This document shows, one piece after another, positions 26,891-54,269 of a stretch of 55,680 bases of DNA (its first letter is position 1; the number at the start of each line of letters is the position of its first letter). Below the pieces are notes generated by a model. It had not been told where the DNA came from and did not search any database. It worked only from the letters and a program-made list of their open reading frames with translations. The DNA comes from Candidatus Parcubacteria bacterium (GTDB lineage: Bacteria > Patescibacteriota > Minisyncoccia > UBA6257 > 2-01-FULL-56-20). The position numbers and the translations under genes are program-made. Location of the stretch: positions 29,978-85,657 of the forward strand of contig DAHVRZ010000002.1 of the NCBI GenBank assembly GCA_027324805.1, read 5' to 3'.

Positions 26891-29479
26891 ATGGAACTAA
26901 CCATCACCAAAAGAGACGGCGCGCGGGAGCCGTTCAACGCCGACAAGATCAACCGCTCGATCGAGCGCGCCTGCCAAGGCCTGCAGGATCCCATAAGCAT
27001 GGTCACGCAGATCGCCACCGAGACGCGTCTCACCCTTTATGATGGCATCACCACGGAGGAAATGGACCAGGCGACGGTCAATGCCGCCGTGCAGAACATA
27101 AAAGAAGATATCGAGTACGACAAAGTGGCCGTGCGCCTCCTTCTTAAGACCGTCTATCGCCGCGTGATCGGCGAATACGATCATAATCCCGACCTGCTCC
27201 ATAAGAAGCACCGAGAACACTTCCCCGAATGGGTGAGGAAAGGCGTCGAAGGCGGGCTGCTCGACCGGCGTCTTCTTGAAAAGTTCGACCTCAAGACCCT
27301 CGCCGCCGCGCTCGAAATATCGCGCGACGAACTTTTCCTCTACAGCGGCCTCGACACACTCCTCCATCGCTACTCGATCAAGGACAAAGAAGAGAAGCCG
27401 TACGAGACGCCGCAGTATTTCTTCATGCGCGTCGCAATGGGACTCTCCTACAACGAAAAAGATCCGACGCTTTGGGCGAAGCGCTTCTATGAAAAGATGT
27501 CCCGGCACGAGTATATCGCCGGAGGCTCGACGAACATCGGCGCCGGCACTACGCGCCCCTCGCTCTCGAACTGCTTCCTTATGCAGATCGAAGACGACAT
27601 GGCGCATATCGCGAAGTCGGTTGCGGACGTGATGATGCTCTCAAAGGCATCGGGCGGCATCGGCGCTTCGGTCACGAAACTCCGCGCGACCGGCTCTCCC
27701 CTCTCTTCCAACAACACCCCTTCGAGCGGACCGACGCCGTTCGCGAAAATCATCGACACCGCGATCCGCGCGATCCAGCGGGGCGGCAAGAAGAAGGGCG
27801 CGCTCTGCTTCTATATGGAGAATTGGCACTACGACTTCCCGGAATTCATCGATTGGAAGCACAATGCCGGCGACGACTATATGCGCATGCGCACCGCCGA
27901 CACCGCGGTCTTCATGACGGACGAGTTCATGCGCCGCGTAAAGGAGGGCGAGATGTGGTATATGTTCGATCCGAAAGAGACGCCGGACCTCATCGAGCTC
28001 TACGGCCGTGCGTTCAGCAAACGCTACGCCGAATATATAGAGAAGGCCGAGCGCGGCGAACTGCGCGTATTCAAGAAGGTCCCCGCCGAAGAGCAGTTCC
28101 GCCAGATCCTGGTTGCCCTCCAGACGACCTCGCACCCATGGCTCACCTGGAAGGATCCGATCAACCTGCGGGCCCTGAACAACAATACGGGTACGATCCA
28201 TATGTCGAATCTCTGCACGGAGATCTGCCTCCCGCAGGACCGCAATAACATCGCCGTCTGCAACCTCGCATCGCTCAATCTCGCCGCACACATCCACAAC
28301 AAACAGGTTGATTGGGAAAAGCTTGAATCGAGCGTGCGCTATGCCGTCCGCCAGCTCGACGACCTCATCGACATCAACGAACTCCCCATCGCGGAAGCCG
28401 AGCATGCCGACAAAGAAAACCGCGCCGTGGGCCTCGGCGTCATGGGATTCTCCGACGTCCTCGAGAAATTCGGCATGGCATATGACAGCCCGCACGCGTG
28501 GGATTTTTCGGACCGCATCTTCGAATTCGTGAGCTACGTCGCGATTGACGAGAGCGCCGACCTTGCGGCCGAACGCGGCAGTTATCCCAACTTCAAGGGT
28601 TCAGGCTGGTCCAAAGGCATGGTGCCGATCGACTCGATCAAGCGCCTTGAAGCAGACCGCGGCACGGAACTCACGGTGGACAAATCGCATCACTACAAAG
28701 GACTCAACTGGGACGCGCTCCGCGAGAAGGTTAAGAAAGGCATGCGGAACGCCACCCTCATGGCCGTCGCGCCGAACGCGAACATCGGCCTCGTCGCCGG
28801 CACGACACCCGGCATCGATCCCCGCTTCGCACAGGTATTTTCGCGCAACAAGATCTCGGGAAAATACATGGATCTCAACCACAACCTCGCAAATGACCTC
28901 AAAAATCTCGGGCTGTGGGACAAAGTGAAGGACAGGATCATCGCCGAGCAGGGCGACATCGCCGCAATCGAAGAGATTCCCCAGCACATCCGCGACGTTT
29001 ACAAGACCTCATTCAGCACGTCGCCGTTCGCCTTCATTGAAGTGGCCGCTCGCGCGCAGAAGTGGATCGACCAGGCGCTCTCGCGCAACATGTACCTCGA
29101 GACGCGCGACATCGGCGAGACGATGATGATCTATACGACCGCATGGGAGAAGGGAGTGAAAACCACCTACTATCTCCACATGAAGCCGCGCCATACCATC
29201 GAGCAGTCCACGGTGCGCGTGAACAAGGCCGAGGCAATGGGCAAGCGCGGATTCGCCGCGGTGATGCAGGCGGCATCGGACATGCCGGCAGCGGCAACGG
29301 CGGACACATCCTCCCCTGCCGCCGCATTCGCCGCGGTGGCCGAAGAACCGAAGGCGGCACGGACCGAGCACTATTTCGAGCCGCGTGGCGCACAGCAACA
29401 GGCCGTACCGAAGAAAGAACCCCGCATCATGCCTCCTTCGGATCCGCAGGCCGATCTCGTATGCGATTCCTGCCAATAA
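26891..29479 (+). CDS. nrdA: Class I ribonucleotide reductase, large (alpha) subunit
   Basis: 862 residues from ATG 26891; an in-frame TTG at 26855 is rejected because the ATP-cone domain begins at this ATG (MELTITKRDGAREPF). The redox cysteines and radical site are present: LSNCFL, SNLCTEI with the thiyl Cys, and AVCNLASLNL. The Tyr pair of the radical path is in KTTYYLH and the C-terminal shuttle is CDSC three residues before the end. A Pro/Ala-rich linker of about 60 residues precedes the tail. The ATP cone suggests dATP feedback control. No Shine-Dalgarno sequence is seen. nrdB follows 18 bp later. Confidence 0.96.
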   Translation: MELTITKRDGAREPFNADKINRSIERACQGLQDPISMVTQIATETRLTLYDGITTEEMDQATVNAAVQNIKEDIEYDKVAVRLLLKTVYRRVIGEYDHNPDLLHKKHREHFPEWVRKGVEGGLLDRRLLEKFDLKTLAAALEISRDELFLYSGLDTLLHRYSIKDKEEKPYETPQYFFMRVAMGLSYNEKDPTLWAKRFYEKMSRHEYIAGGSTNIGAGTTRPSLSNCFLMQIEDDMAHIAKSVADVMMLSKASGGIGASVTKLRATGSPLSSNNTPSSGPTPFAKIIDTAIRAIQRGGKKKGALCFYMENWHYDFPEFIDWKHNAGDDYMRMRTADTAVFMTDEFMRRVKEGEMWYMFDPKETPDLIELYGRAFSKRYAEYIEKAERGELRVFKKVPAEEQFRQILVALQTTSHPWLTWKDPINLRALNNNTGTIHMSNLCTEICLPQDRNNIAVCNLASLNLAAHIHNKQVDWEKLESSVRYAVRQLDDLIDINELPIAEAEHADKENRAVGLGVMGFSDVLEKFGMAYDSPHAWDFSDRIFEFVSYVAIDESADLAAERGSYPNFKGSGWSKGMVPIDSIKRLEADRGTELTVDKSHHYKGLNWDALREKVKKGMRNATLMAVAPNANIGLVAGTTPGIDPRFAQVFSRNKISGKYMDLNHNLANDLKNLGLWDKVKDRIIAEQGDIAAIEEIPQHIRDVYKTSFSTSPFAFIEVAARAQKWIDQALSRNMYLETRDIGETMMIYTTAWEKGVKTTYYLHMKPRHTIEQSTVRVNKAEAMGKRGFAAVMQAASDMPAAATADTSSPAAAFAAVAEEPKAARTEHYFEPRGAQQQAVPKKEPRIMPPSDPQADLVCDSCQ

Positions 29480-29497
29480 CCATCAACCACCAACCAT

Positions 29498-30517
29498 ATG
29501 CTTATCGGAAAACCGTCCCCCGAGGACATGAACATCCACCCCATCCGCTACCAGTGGGCATACGATCTCTATAACCAGGCGGTGCGCAACACGTGGTTCC
29601 CCCATGAGATCGCGCTCAAAGAAGACCTTTATGACTGGGAGAAGATGACGGACGATGAACGCCACGCGGTGGAATTCCTCATTTCATTCTTCAATCCCGC
29701 GGAACTCATCGTGAACCGTTCGATCGCACTCGGCATCTATCCGTACCTCAAATCGCCGGAATGCCATCTCTACCTCGCAAAACAGATGTGGGAGGAGGCA
29801 AACCACTGCGTCGCCTTCGAATACGTGCTCGAGACCTTCCCCATCGACCGCGATGAGGCGTTCGCCCGGCACATCGCCGTACCGTCCATGAAGGCGAAGG
29901 AGGACTACATCAACAACTACATGAAGCGGATGACCGAGGACACGCTCGACGTCTCGACGTCGGAGGGCAAGAAGGATTTTATCCGCAACCTTGTCGCGAC
30001 AAACCTCGTGATGGAAGGCATCTGGTTCTACAGCGGATTCATGGTGGTGCTTTCGTTCCGCCAGAGGAATCAGCTCCGCAACCTCGGTTCGCTCATCAAT
30101 TGGGTGATCCGCGACGAATCGCTCCATCTCAAATTCGGCATGAACCTCATCCAGAACATCCTCGAGGAGAATCCGGAGATCCTCACGCGCGAGTTCGCCG
30201 ATGAGATCAAAAGCATCATCGTACAAGGGGTTGATCTCGAGGTGGAATACAACAAGGATCTCTTCCCCCGCGGCATCCTCGGCCTCAATGCCGATTATGT
30301 GAACCAGTATGTGCAGTACGTCGCGGACCGGCGGCTCGAGGAGCTCGGCATCGGCGCTCACTATGGGGCGAAGAACCCCGCCAAGTGGATGAGCGGCGCG
30401 ACGGACGTACTCGAACTCGTGAATTTCTTCGAAGCGCAGAACACATCGTATGAAGTGGATGCCCGCGCGACGGACCGCAAGAAAAAGGAGGACGACCCAT
30501 CCTCCTCCGCCGAATAG
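29498..30517 (+). CDS. nrdB: Ribonucleotide reductase small (beta) subunit, class Ic type
   Basis: 339 residues, a ferritin-like helical bundle. Metal ligands read as E69, E100, H103, E173, E207 and H210. The residue at the tyrosyl-radical position (four after H103) is F107. A Phe here together with Glu as first ligand is the known signature of class Ic R2, as in Chlamydia trachomatis, where a Mn(IV)/Fe(III) cofactor replaces the radical; by memory every one of these positions differs from the Chlamydia numbering by exactly 20. This is inference from residues, not proof of the metal. The gene is coupled to nrdA. Confidence 0.95.
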   Translation: MLIGKPSPEDMNIHPIRYQWAYDLYNQAVRNTWFPHEIALKEDLYDWEKMTDDERHAVEFLISFFNPAELIVNRSIALGIYPYLKSPECHLYLAKQMWEEANHCVAFEYVLETFPIDRDEAFARHIAVPSMKAKEDYINNYMKRMTEDTLDVSTSEGKKDFIRNLVATNLVMEGIWFYSGFMVVLSFRQRNQLRNLGSLINWVIRDESLHLKFGMNLIQNILEENPEILTREFADEIKSIIVQGVDLEVEYNKDLFPRGILGLNADYVNQYVQYVADRRLEELGIGAHYGAKNPAKWMSGATDVLELVNFFEAQNTSYEVDARATDRKKKEDDPSSSAE

Positions 30518-31232: not shown

Positions 31233-31706
31233 CTATCGTTCCTTCAGGCTGATTCTGAAAATATTGTGGAAGGCGGCTTCATCCTCCTTGGTGAAAACGC
31301 CCGCTACCACGCTACCGCCCTTCACGAGCGAGATTAGATCGCTTGGCGGATCGGTCGGCATAAACGCCACATCCACATCCGTCGATATTTCCGGTTCAAA
31401 GCCGCTTTTCCGTATTCTCTCTATGAGAGATTGCAGGCCGATATTCGAAACCAACGCCCGCGCGATCCCTTCACTCAACTCTCTGGCGAAAGAGTGGGTT
31501 TGGGGGAGACGATCAACGTCCACCACGATGGAAACCTCCATCGCCATGGTCGAATCGACCGCAAGGATGGCTCCGAATCGCTTTTTGCACCCATCATAGG
31601 GACAGGTCCACTCCTGAAGCGATCCCAGCGACTTCGTGGTGAATTTTATCGTAAGGTCTTTCCCGCAGTGCGGGCAGAGGATGCTGTGCTCAAGAACCGA
31701 TTCCAT
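31233..31706 (-). CDS. Zinc-ribbon orphan protein, paralogue 1
   Basis: 157 residues with an N-terminal zinc ribbon (CPHCG and WTCPYDGC) and a C-terminal alpha/beta domain ending VVAGVFTKEDEAAFHNIFRISLKER. It is a paralogue of the next gene upstream (31822-32289): both share the ribbon, the segment (S/N)IS-[MT] and the ending GVF(T/S)ExDxxxxxxxRISL. A GGAGG ribosome binding site lies five bases before the ATG. No known family recognised; nucleic-acid or protein binding would be typical for such a ribbon. Confidence 0.65.
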   Translation of the reverse strand: MESVLEHSILCPHCGKDLTIKFTTKSLGSLQEWTCPYDGCKKRFGAILAVDSTMAMEVSIVVDVDRLPQTHSFARELSEGIARALVSNIGLQSLIERIRKSGFEPEISTDVDVAFMPTDPPSDLISLVKGGSVVAGVFTKEDEAAFHNIFRISLKER

Positions 31707-31821: not shown

Positions 31822-32289
31822 TTATTCTCCCTCCAAGCTGATCCGGAGATCCTTCAGCTCATTTTGGTCCTGTTCGCTGAATACGCCGGGTACGATGCAG
31901 CCATTTTCCACAAGAGGCACCGGTTCCTTGTACTCCCCTCCTCCCGTGCGAACGAGACTGACCTCGAACCCCATGGAAATATTGGGTGCATATCCCTCTT
32001 TCTTCAGCTTTTCGACCAAAGCATTCAACAGTTCGCTCGAACTGAATGCCGAAAGGGCCGTTTCGTGCAGTGCTTTACCGAATTCCATAAGGAGCGGATT
32101 GTGGACAGTGTTCCTGTCGGGCGGGACATTGAATACCCTGTCCGTCATGGTGATAACCTTGTCGAACATGTAATGGCATTCTTCGCACCGCACCCCGACC
32201 GTCGTCCCCTCGCATTTCCCCCGCATACGCACTTTCGAGTGCGACTTGCATTGGGGGCATTGTACGTCGTACGTATGCCTTTTTGCCAT
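31822..32289 (-). CDS. Zinc-ribbon orphan protein, paralogue 2
   Basis: 155 residues with a zinc ribbon (CPQC ... VRCEECHYMF) and the same C-terminal domain as gene 31233-31706. A strong GGGAGGG ribosome binding site precedes the ATG. The promoter is TTGTAT, 17 bp, TATAAA (minus strand, about 32338-32366). The Arg/Ser-rich loop between the Cys pairs (KSHSKVRMRGK) may contact nucleic acid. Separate promoters and terminators for the two paralogues suggest separate regulation. Confidence 0.65.
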   Translation of the reverse strand: MAKRHTYDVQCPQCKSHSKVRMRGKCEGTTVGVRCEECHYMFDKVITMTDRVFNVPPDRNTVHNPLLMEFGKALHETALSAFSSSELLNALVEKLKKEGYAPNISMGFEVSLVRTGGGEYKEPVPLVENGCIVPGVFSEQDQNELKDLRISLEGE

Positions 32290-32697: not shown

Positions 32698-32713
32698 TAC
32701 CCCGCATTTTTTG

Positions 32714-32785
32714 CTCCGCAGCCAGGACTCGAACCTGGAACCCTCTCGTTAACAGCGAGACGCTCTACCATTGAGCTACTGCGGA
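32714..32785 (-). tRNA. tRNA-Asn (anticodon GTT)
   Basis: Minus-strand cloverleaf: acceptor TCCGCAG/CTGCGGA, D-arm AGCTCAATGGTAGAGC, anticodon loop CTGTTAA and T-arm GGTTCGAGTCC. Discriminator G; CCA not encoded. Confidence 0.95.
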
Positions 32786-51820: not shown

Positions 51821-54079
51821 CTACGCCAAAGTTTCCTTTCTCAAAAGCAACGCGTTCGCGACGACGATGACCGACGACGCGCTCATGAGGATTGCCGCCC
51901 ATGCCGGAGGAAGGAGAATATGGAACGACGGATAGAGCACGCCCGCCGCGATGGGGATGGCGAACACATTGTATCCCGTCGCCCATGCGAGGTTCTGGAC
52001 CATCTTGCGGTTCGACTTGCGGCTCAAGGAAATGGCCCTCACCACGTCGAGCGGGTTGCTCTTCATGAGGACGATGTCGGCCGACGCCACCGCCACGTCC
52101 GTGCCCGCTCCGATCGCGATGCCGACGTGCGCCTGGGTGAGCGATGCGGCGTCATTCACGCCATCCCCCACCATGGCGACGATATTGCCGCCGTGCTGCA
52201 GTTCCTTCACCTTGTTGACCTTGTCCTCGGGCAGTACATGGGCGAACACCGTGTCGATGCCGAGTTCACGGCCCACGGCATCGGCGACGTCCTGCGTGTC
52301 GCCGGTGAGCATCGCTGTTTTGATGCCCATTTCGCGCAACCGCGCGATGGCTTCTTTGGATTCATCCCGCACTATGTCCGCAAGGAAAATCGTCCCCGCG
52401 AATTTCCCATTCACCGCCACGTAGTTCGGCGTACTTACCTCGGCGCTACGGCTCACGGCATCCGTCACACCCTCAATGTTCTGCTCCCGCATGAGCACCT
52501 TATTGCCGATCAAAACCTCTTTGTCGCCAACTCTGCCGGAGACCCCTTTCCCCGGGTATGATTTGAAGTTTTTGACCTCCTCCATGCGGAGGTTCTTTTC
52601 TTTAGCAGCACTCACGATACCTTGCGCGATCGAATGTTGCGAAGACACGTTCACGGACGCGGCGAGCGACAACAGTTCGTTCTCATCACGGATATCGGAT
52701 GTCCCGGACAAGACGATATCCGCAACCCCGAATTCACCTTTGGTGAGCGTGCCGGTCTTGTCGAACACCACGTAGTTGAGCTTCCGCGCAATTTCCAATC
52801 CTTTCATGTCTTTGATCAAAATGCCGTTCTTCGCGCCCAAGGTCGTCGTGATGGATGTCACCGTGGGGATTGCGAGACCGAGCGCATGCGGACAGGCGAT
52901 GACAATCGCGGCGACAGCCACCGTGGCGGCGAAGATTGCCCCCTGCGGCCAGATGAAGTACCATGCCATGAACGAGAGCACGCCTGCGCCGACGGCGACG
53001 TAGAAGAGCACCGACGCCGCACGGTCCGCAAGGTGCTGGACGTTCGGTTTTGATCCCTGCGCTTCGCGCACCAGCTTCATAATCTGGGCGATGGCCGTAT
53101 CCGCCCCGGTCTTCGCCACTTCGACCGTGAGCGAGCCGTCCTGGTTCAGAGAGCCGCCCACGACTTCGTCGCCCGCTTTTTTGGCGATCGGGCGCGATTC
53201 GCCGGTGAGCATCGCTTCGCTCACTGAGCTTTCGCCGTCCACCACCTTGCCATCTACCGGAATCTTCTCGCCGGGTTTGACCAGTACCTTGTCGCCGATC
53301 ACGAGCTCACTCGTCTGCACGTCGGATAGCTCTCCGTCTTTCATAAGATGCGCGGAAGGTGGTATGAGCTTTGCCAGTTCCGACAAGGCACCGGTCGCGC
53401 CGCGCACCGCCCGCATTTCAAGCCAATGGCCGAGCAAGAAGACGGAGATCAGCGTCGCCATCTCCCAGTACAGCGAATTGCCGGGGAAGAAGAATGTGGC
53501 CGCAATGGAAAACGCGAAGGCGGCGGTGATCGCGAAGGCCACGAGCGTCATCATCGCCGGATTCTTGTGTGTCAGTTCCCCTTTGGATGCCTTGAAGAAC
53601 GGCAAGCCGCCGTAGAAGAACACGAAAGCACCGATCAGAAAGAGCCATAGGCTACCGCCCGGGACCGTCCACTCGAAATGGAACCATAACTGGATGTTCG
53701 GCGAGAGCGCCATGGAGAGAAGCACAAAAGGAAGCGTGATCCAGAAGCGGCGCTTGAAATCCTGCTCGGCCCCGCCGTGCCCTGCGTGCGCGTCGCTGCC
53801 GCCGCCCATATCCATAGGAACGAGCTCCATGCCGCACTTCGGGCATTCGCCGGGCTTGTCGGAGATGACATCCGGATCCATAGGACAGGTATAGAGCTGC
53901 CCTCCGGCGTGCGCGGCCATTGCGGTGTGCGCCTTCTTGTCGTGATCGTTATGCGGGTGTTGCAAGTCACCCTCTTTGACAAGATTCATGCCGCACTTTG
54001 GGCATCGGCCAGGGGCATCCTGCCGTATTTCAGGATGCATCAGGCAAGTGTACATTGTTTTATTTGGTTCATTATCCAT
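51821..54079 (-). CDS. copB: Copper-type P1B-ATPase (CPH motif) with two N-terminal heavy-metal-binding domains
   Basis: 752 residues from ATG 54079 ([18 protein letters not shown]); an upstream frame overlaps the small HMBD gene. Two short metal-binding domains (YTCLMHPE ... CPKCGMNL and YTCPMDPD ... CPKCGMEL) precede a His-rich linker, then the P1B core: TGES, the membrane motif [15 protein letters not shown] and [13 protein letters not shown] in place of CPC marks the CopB/P1B-3 group, which exports Cu or Ag. The CsoR-like operator of the operon agrees with copper. Confidence 0.93.
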
Positions 54080-54101
54080 TGAAGTTAGATGAGAATGGTT
54101 T

Positions 54102-54269
54102 TTATCCGCAGCATCCGCCATGCGATTTGTGTGAGTGCTCATTTTCGGCCGTATCCGCATCCGCCACTACCAAATTCATACCGCACTTCGGACATCTCCC
54201 CGGCGCATCCTGTTTCACTTCCGAGTGCATCGGGCACGTATAGGTTGTTTTATTTTGTTCGTTGTTCAT
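54102..54269 (-). CDS. Stand-alone heavy-metal-binding domain mini-protein
   Basis: 55 residues, start ATG 54269, stop TAA 54102. The sequence runs from an N-terminal [15 protein letters not shown] to [14 protein letters not shown] and ends in a His/Cys tail ([11 protein letters not shown]). It is nearly the same as the first metal domain of the ATPase encoded 22 bp downstream (MxNExNKTxYTCxMHxE...), so one arose from the other. A soluble copper carrier or sensor for the ATPase is a natural guess. Its start overlaps the Cys-rich gene by 20 bp. Confidence 0.8.

Follow-up and report, generated by a model that had tools for sequence, protein, structure and literature searches.

The nrdB gene of a Candidatus Parcubacteria bacterium raises the question of whether a ribonucleotide reductase (RNR) small subunit, with Phe in place of the radical-bearing Tyr and Glu as first metal ligand, works like the class Ic enzyme of Chlamydia trachomatis (Ct R2c), and whether it descends from an enzyme of that type. 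To our knowledge, essentially all that biochemistry has shown of class Ic chemistry comes from that one protein, and nothing on point for CPR bacteria with a class Ic RNR was found in the open-licence literature. Based on the evidence below, we consider it likely that the locus encodes the sole RNR of its genome, with a tyrosine-free and most probably Mn/Fe-dependent NrdB that works like class Ic and belongs to a distinct branch in Patescibacteria and phages.

The window, the whole stretch of 55,680 nucleotides of contig DAHVRZ010000002.1 that was analysed, contains the following features of the locus; residue assignments are from alignment to Ct R2c unless stated otherwise.

26891..29479, + strand: nrdA, class I RNR large subunit, 862 aa, 18 nt 5′ of nrdB
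29498..30517, + strand: nrdB, class I RNR small subunit (R2) with Phe/Glu motif, 339 aa, ORF intact
29594..29596, + strand: W33 codon (Ct W51 / E. coli W48)
29702..29704, + strand: E69 codon, first metal ligand, Glu not Asp (Ct E89)
29795..29806, + strand: E100 and H103 codons, metal ligands, first ExxH
29816..29818, + strand: F107 codon, Phe at the tyrosyl-radical position (Ct F127)
30014..30016, + strand: E173 codon, metal ligand (Ct E193)
30101..30103, + strand: W202 codon at the Ct Y222 position (Trp in 133/133 query-clade sequences covering the site)
30116..30127, + strand: E207 and H210 codons, metal ligands, second ExxH, after transfer-path D206
30449..30451, + strand: Y318 codon, C-terminal transfer Tyr (Ct Y338 / E. 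coli Y356)
30461..30514, + strand: hydrophilic, variable C-terminal tail after QNTSYEVD, without a hydrophobic ...GGxLxW(D) end (C-terminus comparison)

NrdB is a class I R2 by its matches to PF00268 (263.6 bits in the Pfam profile search, where the cut-off is 33.6) and to the NCBIfam RNR-beta model NF007186 (369 bits, cut-off 237), by its six carboxylate/His ligands, and by its C-terminal Tyr and NrdA partner, the last two being absent from R2-like ligand-binding oxidases (R2lox). NrdA reaches 1243.8 bits on the NCBIfam model NF005101 (cut-off 988) and matches PF02867, PF00317 and PF03477, with a single N-terminal ATP cone and the barrel domain; its translation includes SNLCTEI with the thiyl Cys, TTYYLHMKP with the transfer-path Tyr-Tyr pair, and a C-terminal CDSCQ. 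The nrdA-nrdB order is also found in relatives. No NrdR box was found 5′ of nrdA within the window, and a promoter scan returned three sites where 2.1 were expected.

The genome measures 876 kb at 96.5% completeness and its nearest named relatives are Parcubacteria, Paceibacterota and Kaiserbacteria MAGs, in agreement with the CPR affiliation proposed in the initial annotation. Profile searches recovered one PF00268 and one PF02867 protein, and neither a class III NRDD nor the NrdI activase (PF07972) was found in the genome. The nrdA-nrdB pair is the only RNR found, the estimated completeness leaving room for a second. Since no O2-independent RNR was found in the genome, de novo synthesis of dNTPs is expected to require O2, and an uncultivated streamlined bacterium would predictably rely on O2, and probably on Mn too, for its DNA precursors. 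The genome also encodes an Fe/Mn-SOD and three Nramp-family matches, two of them at contig ends, which is compatible with O2 exposure and divalent-metal import. Cytochrome oxidase subunit I (COX1) was not found in the genome, leaving O2 respiration unsupported by that marker.

Elsewhere in the window, two adjoining, related small proteins (31233-31706 and 31822-32289, both − strand) have N-termini resembling CxxC metal ribbons (CPHCGK / CPQCKS) and match no Pfam family. A heavy-metal P-type ATPase (51821-54160, − strand) has two heavy-metal-binding domain matches (PF00122, PF19335). The only RNA-family matches in the window are tRNA-Asn(gtt) at 32713-32785 and tRNA-Lys(ttt) at 1222-1295, both on the − strand.

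Active-site and radical-transfer residues

The closest solved relative of NrdB is Ct R2c (1syy; phmmer, E = 5e-77), at about 40% identity in the fold-search alignment. Aligned to 1syy, E69, E100, H103, F107, E173, E207 and H210 fall on Ct E89, E120, H123, F127, E193, E227 and H230, and the numbering offset is 18 up to a two-residue Ct insertion and 20 thereafter. The initial annotation had read Phe at the tyrosyl-radical position, Glu rather than Asp as first ligand, and a ligand set at a constant offset of 20 to the Chlamydia enzyme. All three readings hold. The segment around F107 aligns gap-free, with no Tyr in a shifted register. Like Ct R2c (1syy, 4d8f, 4m1i), NrdB combines six ligands, Glu first, with a radical-site Phe, the equivalents of W51 and Y338, and RDE before the second ExxH. 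F107 and E69 are kept in all 87 nearest Patescibacteria rows (at least 74% identity), and the six ligands, W33, D206 and Y318 are invariant or almost so across the clade and the references.

At positions 69/107, the 198 aligned R2s carry E/F in 157 cases, D/Y in 34, E/Y in seven and D/F in none; this set is weighted to Patescibacteria, and the strict association of Phe with Glu holds in the reference rows too. The published pairs are Tyr/Asp for classes Ia and Ib, Phe/Glu for Ic and Tyr/Glu for Id (PMC8463856), and NrdB, with Phe at the radical position paired with a Glu first ligand, has the class Ic motif. Class Id was rejected on F107, which stands where that class has Tyr. Class Ib, a Tyr/Asp site served by the NrdI activase, was rejected on F107/E69 and on the absence of PF07972 from the genome. 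Class Ie, in which the metal-ligand carboxylates are lost and a DOPA radical is formed, was rejected on the presence of all six ligands.

An AF2 model of NrdB built with 28 clade sequences (pLDDT 71.8, pTM 0.74; low in residues 28-37 and the tail) found Ct R2 in its first 13 PDB matches with Foldseek, followed by 6y2n. This medium-confidence model supports the fold and bears on the fold only, not on metal-site geometry.

Two features set the query branch, the clade around this NrdB, apart from Ct R2c and its relatives. Ct Y222 is reported to mediate the step that reduces the Mn(IV)/Fe(IV) intermediate during cofactor assembly and has been described as conserved among R2c (PMC4118035). Its equivalent is Trp202 in all 133 query-branch sequences covering the site, and it is mostly Phe in a second Patescibacteria Phe/Glu clade, so Y222 is not a strict definition of R2c. 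Trp also occupies position 202 in some Tyr/Asp R2s. Because Trp is redox-capable, Trp202 as a relay in place of Tyr222 is a reasonable inference; as Y222 itself is not conserved, the assembly path must differ in detail. The second feature is the C-terminus, which in the query branch runs through QNTSYEV(D/N) into a tail of about 3-45 residues that varies and is mostly hydrophilic, whereas in almost all other R2 groups the protein closes with a hydrophobic anchor, for example EYQxGGxLxW(D) or GFDEDF. R2 of the known class I RNRs docks on NrdA through its C-terminus. Since the usual hydrophobic tail is absent, NrdB-NrdA docking probably differs in the query branch.

Phylogenetic position of the query branch

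To place NrdB, we relied on an R2 tree inferred without the two signature columns. The groups compared were defined after a first tree had been inferred, long branches are present, and the outgroups were drawn from plasmids, phages, E. coli and the PDB only. Phe/Glu rows fall in three places: the query branch (support 100/99); a group of Ct, haloarchaea and the second Patescibacteria clade (100/96), which nests among Tyr/Asp enzymes; and Saccharopolyspora erythraea with Phyllobacterium and Methylocella, likewise nested with Tyr/Asp enzymes. The nearest neighbours of the query branch are Tyr/Asp enzymes, at a weak support of 69/21. Phe/Glu rows formed one side of a branch in 0/200 bootstrap trees, and a single Phe/Glu clade gave p = 0.0053 in the AU test. 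Joining the query branch to the chlamydial group gave p = 0.0487, or 0.0414 without the long-branched rows, both marginal. The NrdA tree, from an independent gene of about 800 aa and containing no Ct sequence, splits the query branch (100/100) from haloarchaeal and second-Patescibacteria partners, which join Tyr/Asp partners; here the AU test gave 0.035 (marginal) for the query with chlamydial-type partners and 1.5e-5 for all Phe/Glu together.

The other groups share some characters with the query and differ in others. The haloarchaeal and second-Patescibacteria proteins (e.g. L094, L082) share the Phe/Glu motif, ligands and transfer residues with the query, but are 35-40% identical to it, group with Ct R2c, have Phe or Tyr at 202 and end in ...LxW. 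S. erythraea R2 (6y2n) and the Phyllobacterium/Methylocella plasmid R2s share the motif and W176; they differ in having Tyr at 202 and, in the plasmid proteins, a GGALxW-type tail, and in the tree they fall within Tyr/Asp enzymes from Legionella, Teredinibacter and Acidithiobacillus. The weakly supported neighbours in the R2 tree, from Actinobacteria and Bdellovibrio (L096, L100, L101), share Trp at 202 but have a Tyr/Asp class Ia-type site and a GFDEDF-type tail.

The main competitor to the favoured reading is that NrdB is a straight orthologue of chlamydial/haloarchaeal R2c, the Phe/Glu pair having been inherited once and spread by gene transfer within an ordinary class Ic. The top PDB match by both sequence and fold is Ct R2c, the ligand and transfer residues are identical, and the tree backbone is poorly supported around the query branch (69/21), all of which would suit such descent. 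However, the query branches apart in both the R2 and NrdA trees (AU 0.049 and 0.041 for R2, 0.035 for NrdA), has Trp at the Y222 position, and lacks the hydrophobic ...LxW-type tail of the relatives that group with Ct R2c. The best NCBIfam model also differs: members of the query branch, phage version included, fit NF007186 best, while the top model of haloarchaeal, Phyllobacterium and Tyr/Asp plasmid proteins is NF005550. For NrdA, the query reaches 671 bits on NF009029 (cut-off 1350) but 1244 on NF005101. We therefore regard orthology as unlikely, though it is the alternative that survives best.

The query NrdB sits on a distinct branch in Patescibacteria and phages, its union with chlamydial R2c is marginally rejected, and inheritance of its site from a chlamydial-type enzyme is not supported by these comparisons. 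Its Phe/Glu pair probably has an origin of its own, apart from that in the chlamydial/haloarchaeal line; this is favoured, not proven, and the pair may instead be ancestral, with reversals to Tyr/Asp. The Phe/Glu signature read in the initial annotation stands; in the R2 tree, NrdB falls outside the chlamydial R2c clade and outside any tyrosyl-radical clade. R2c was polyphyletic in one neighbour-joining study and monophyletic in a later one with limited sampling (PMC3824934), and a similarity network showed Ic-like sequences mixed with Ia-like ones (PMC8463856). The query clade bears on this earlier disagreement over whether R2c is a single lineage.

Cofactor and radical initiation

We propose that NrdB would bind a pair of metals, with Mn the likeliest occupant of site 1 (E69, E100, H103) and Fe of site 2 (E173, E207, H210), and that the pair would react with O2 to give a high-valent centre. 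The extra electron for assembly may enter via W33, with W202 standing where R2c has its relay Tyr. The centre so formed, which in C. trachomatis is Mn(IV)/Fe(III), would oxidise the NrdA cysteine via W33/Y318 and the NrdA Tyr pair. The initial annotation termed this radical-free initiation, a misnomer in that only the stored Tyr radical would be absent, and the catalytic thiyl radical in NrdA would still be required. The protein is best treated as class Ic-like, possibly with an origin of tyrosine-free initiation of its own. With a shared Phe/Glu site but a different residue at the relay position and a different tail, the widespread query branch offers a natural second experiment on whether Phe/Glu alone predicts Mn/Fe and whether the Tyr222 relay is needed.

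The Mn/Fe cofactor is a plausible prediction, its metals and oxidation states being inferred from Ct R2c; it is capped at that level because, according to a review, the choice of metals is not decided by the N-terminal ligand (PMC4118035). In class Id, a site whose first ligand is Glu can hold Mn2, which speaks against reading the metal pair from the motif. A tyrosine-free dimanganese enzyme resembling class Id, with a Mn2(IV,III) oxidant generated from superoxide or peroxide, would draw on the same uncertainty of the motif (PMC4118035), on the Glu first ligand shared with class Id R2 (NrdBi, Flavobacterium johnsoniae type; PMC8463856), and on the Fe/Mn-SOD encoded in the genome. Class Id R2 also has a metal-centred oxidant, as is predicted for the query. 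We judge the dimanganese reading distinctly improbable, because class Id, with its Mn2(IV,III) centre, retains the radical-site Tyr (PMC8463856, PMC6754362) where the query has Phe, and because a Lys close to the first ligand is conserved in the class Id subgroup that has been characterised (PMC6754362), whereas the query reads ELIVNRS from E69.

Even less probable is a di-iron enzyme in which some other aromatic residue carries the radical in place of the missing Tyr. Y109, W176 and Y178 are candidates and are invariant in the clade, but Ct R2c, which forms no Tyr radical, also has the equivalents of Y109 and Y178, and W176 is shared with the S. erythraea-type Phe/Glu R2. That NrdB is an R2lox or another non-RNR ferritin-like enzyme can be dismissed, since, despite the Glu first ligand and Mn/Fe that R2lox likewise has (PMC4118035), the gene lies 18 nt downstream of the genome's only large subunit, Y318 is conserved, and R2lox NCBIfam models score at most 87 bits, under their cut-offs, against 369 for the RNR beta model.

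Occurrence in Patescibacteria and viruses

R2 was present in 55 of 381 sampled Patescibacteria genomes. Several class I subclasses occur side by side in this lineage, with Phe/Glu in 31 of the 54 classifiable genomes, Tyr/Asp in 18 and Tyr/Glu in five. Among the 31 Phe/Glu genomes, 20 have the query type with Trp202 and 11 the second type. Searching GTDB genomes with the query brought up 560 related stretches, the best 80 of which belong to Patescibacteria or to MAGs labelled as bacterium, and a scan of IMG/VR returned 30 contigs with R2s 60-69% identical to the query, all 30 with Phe/Glu (L170-L199).

Seventeen viral records, which may be fragments, were searched in full (22.7-120.5 kb), and in 14 of these a large subunit was not found, which suggests a lone phage R2. 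A clear NrdA was present in one of the 17, the record of L196. The record of L183 encodes a class II RTPR (TIGR02505, 366 bits), and another has a partial, weak RTPR-like match.

A wider scenario can be put forward tentatively, and we would not yet bet on it: tyrosine-free, metal-oxidant RNR may have evolved at least twice, the Patescibacteria/phage branch being its own invention with a Trp relay and other docking, and phages may carry NrdB alone to activate the NrdA of their host.

Further diversity was observed around these groups. The NrdA proteins of the f55 Patescibacteria family (L218-L220) and of phage contig L196 have GFGFAKK-type ends, without the C-terminal CxxC pair (CDSCQ) seen in most partners. 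The second Patescibacteria Phe/Glu clade (L082-L086, L109, L110, L112-L114, L116, L117, L119, L124, L125) is sister to haloarchaeal R2 and groups with Ct R2c, and the residue mostly found at its Y222 position, Phe, is redox-inert. Five Patescibacteria genomes (L154-L158) encode a very divergent Tyr/Glu R2 with a class Id-type motif.
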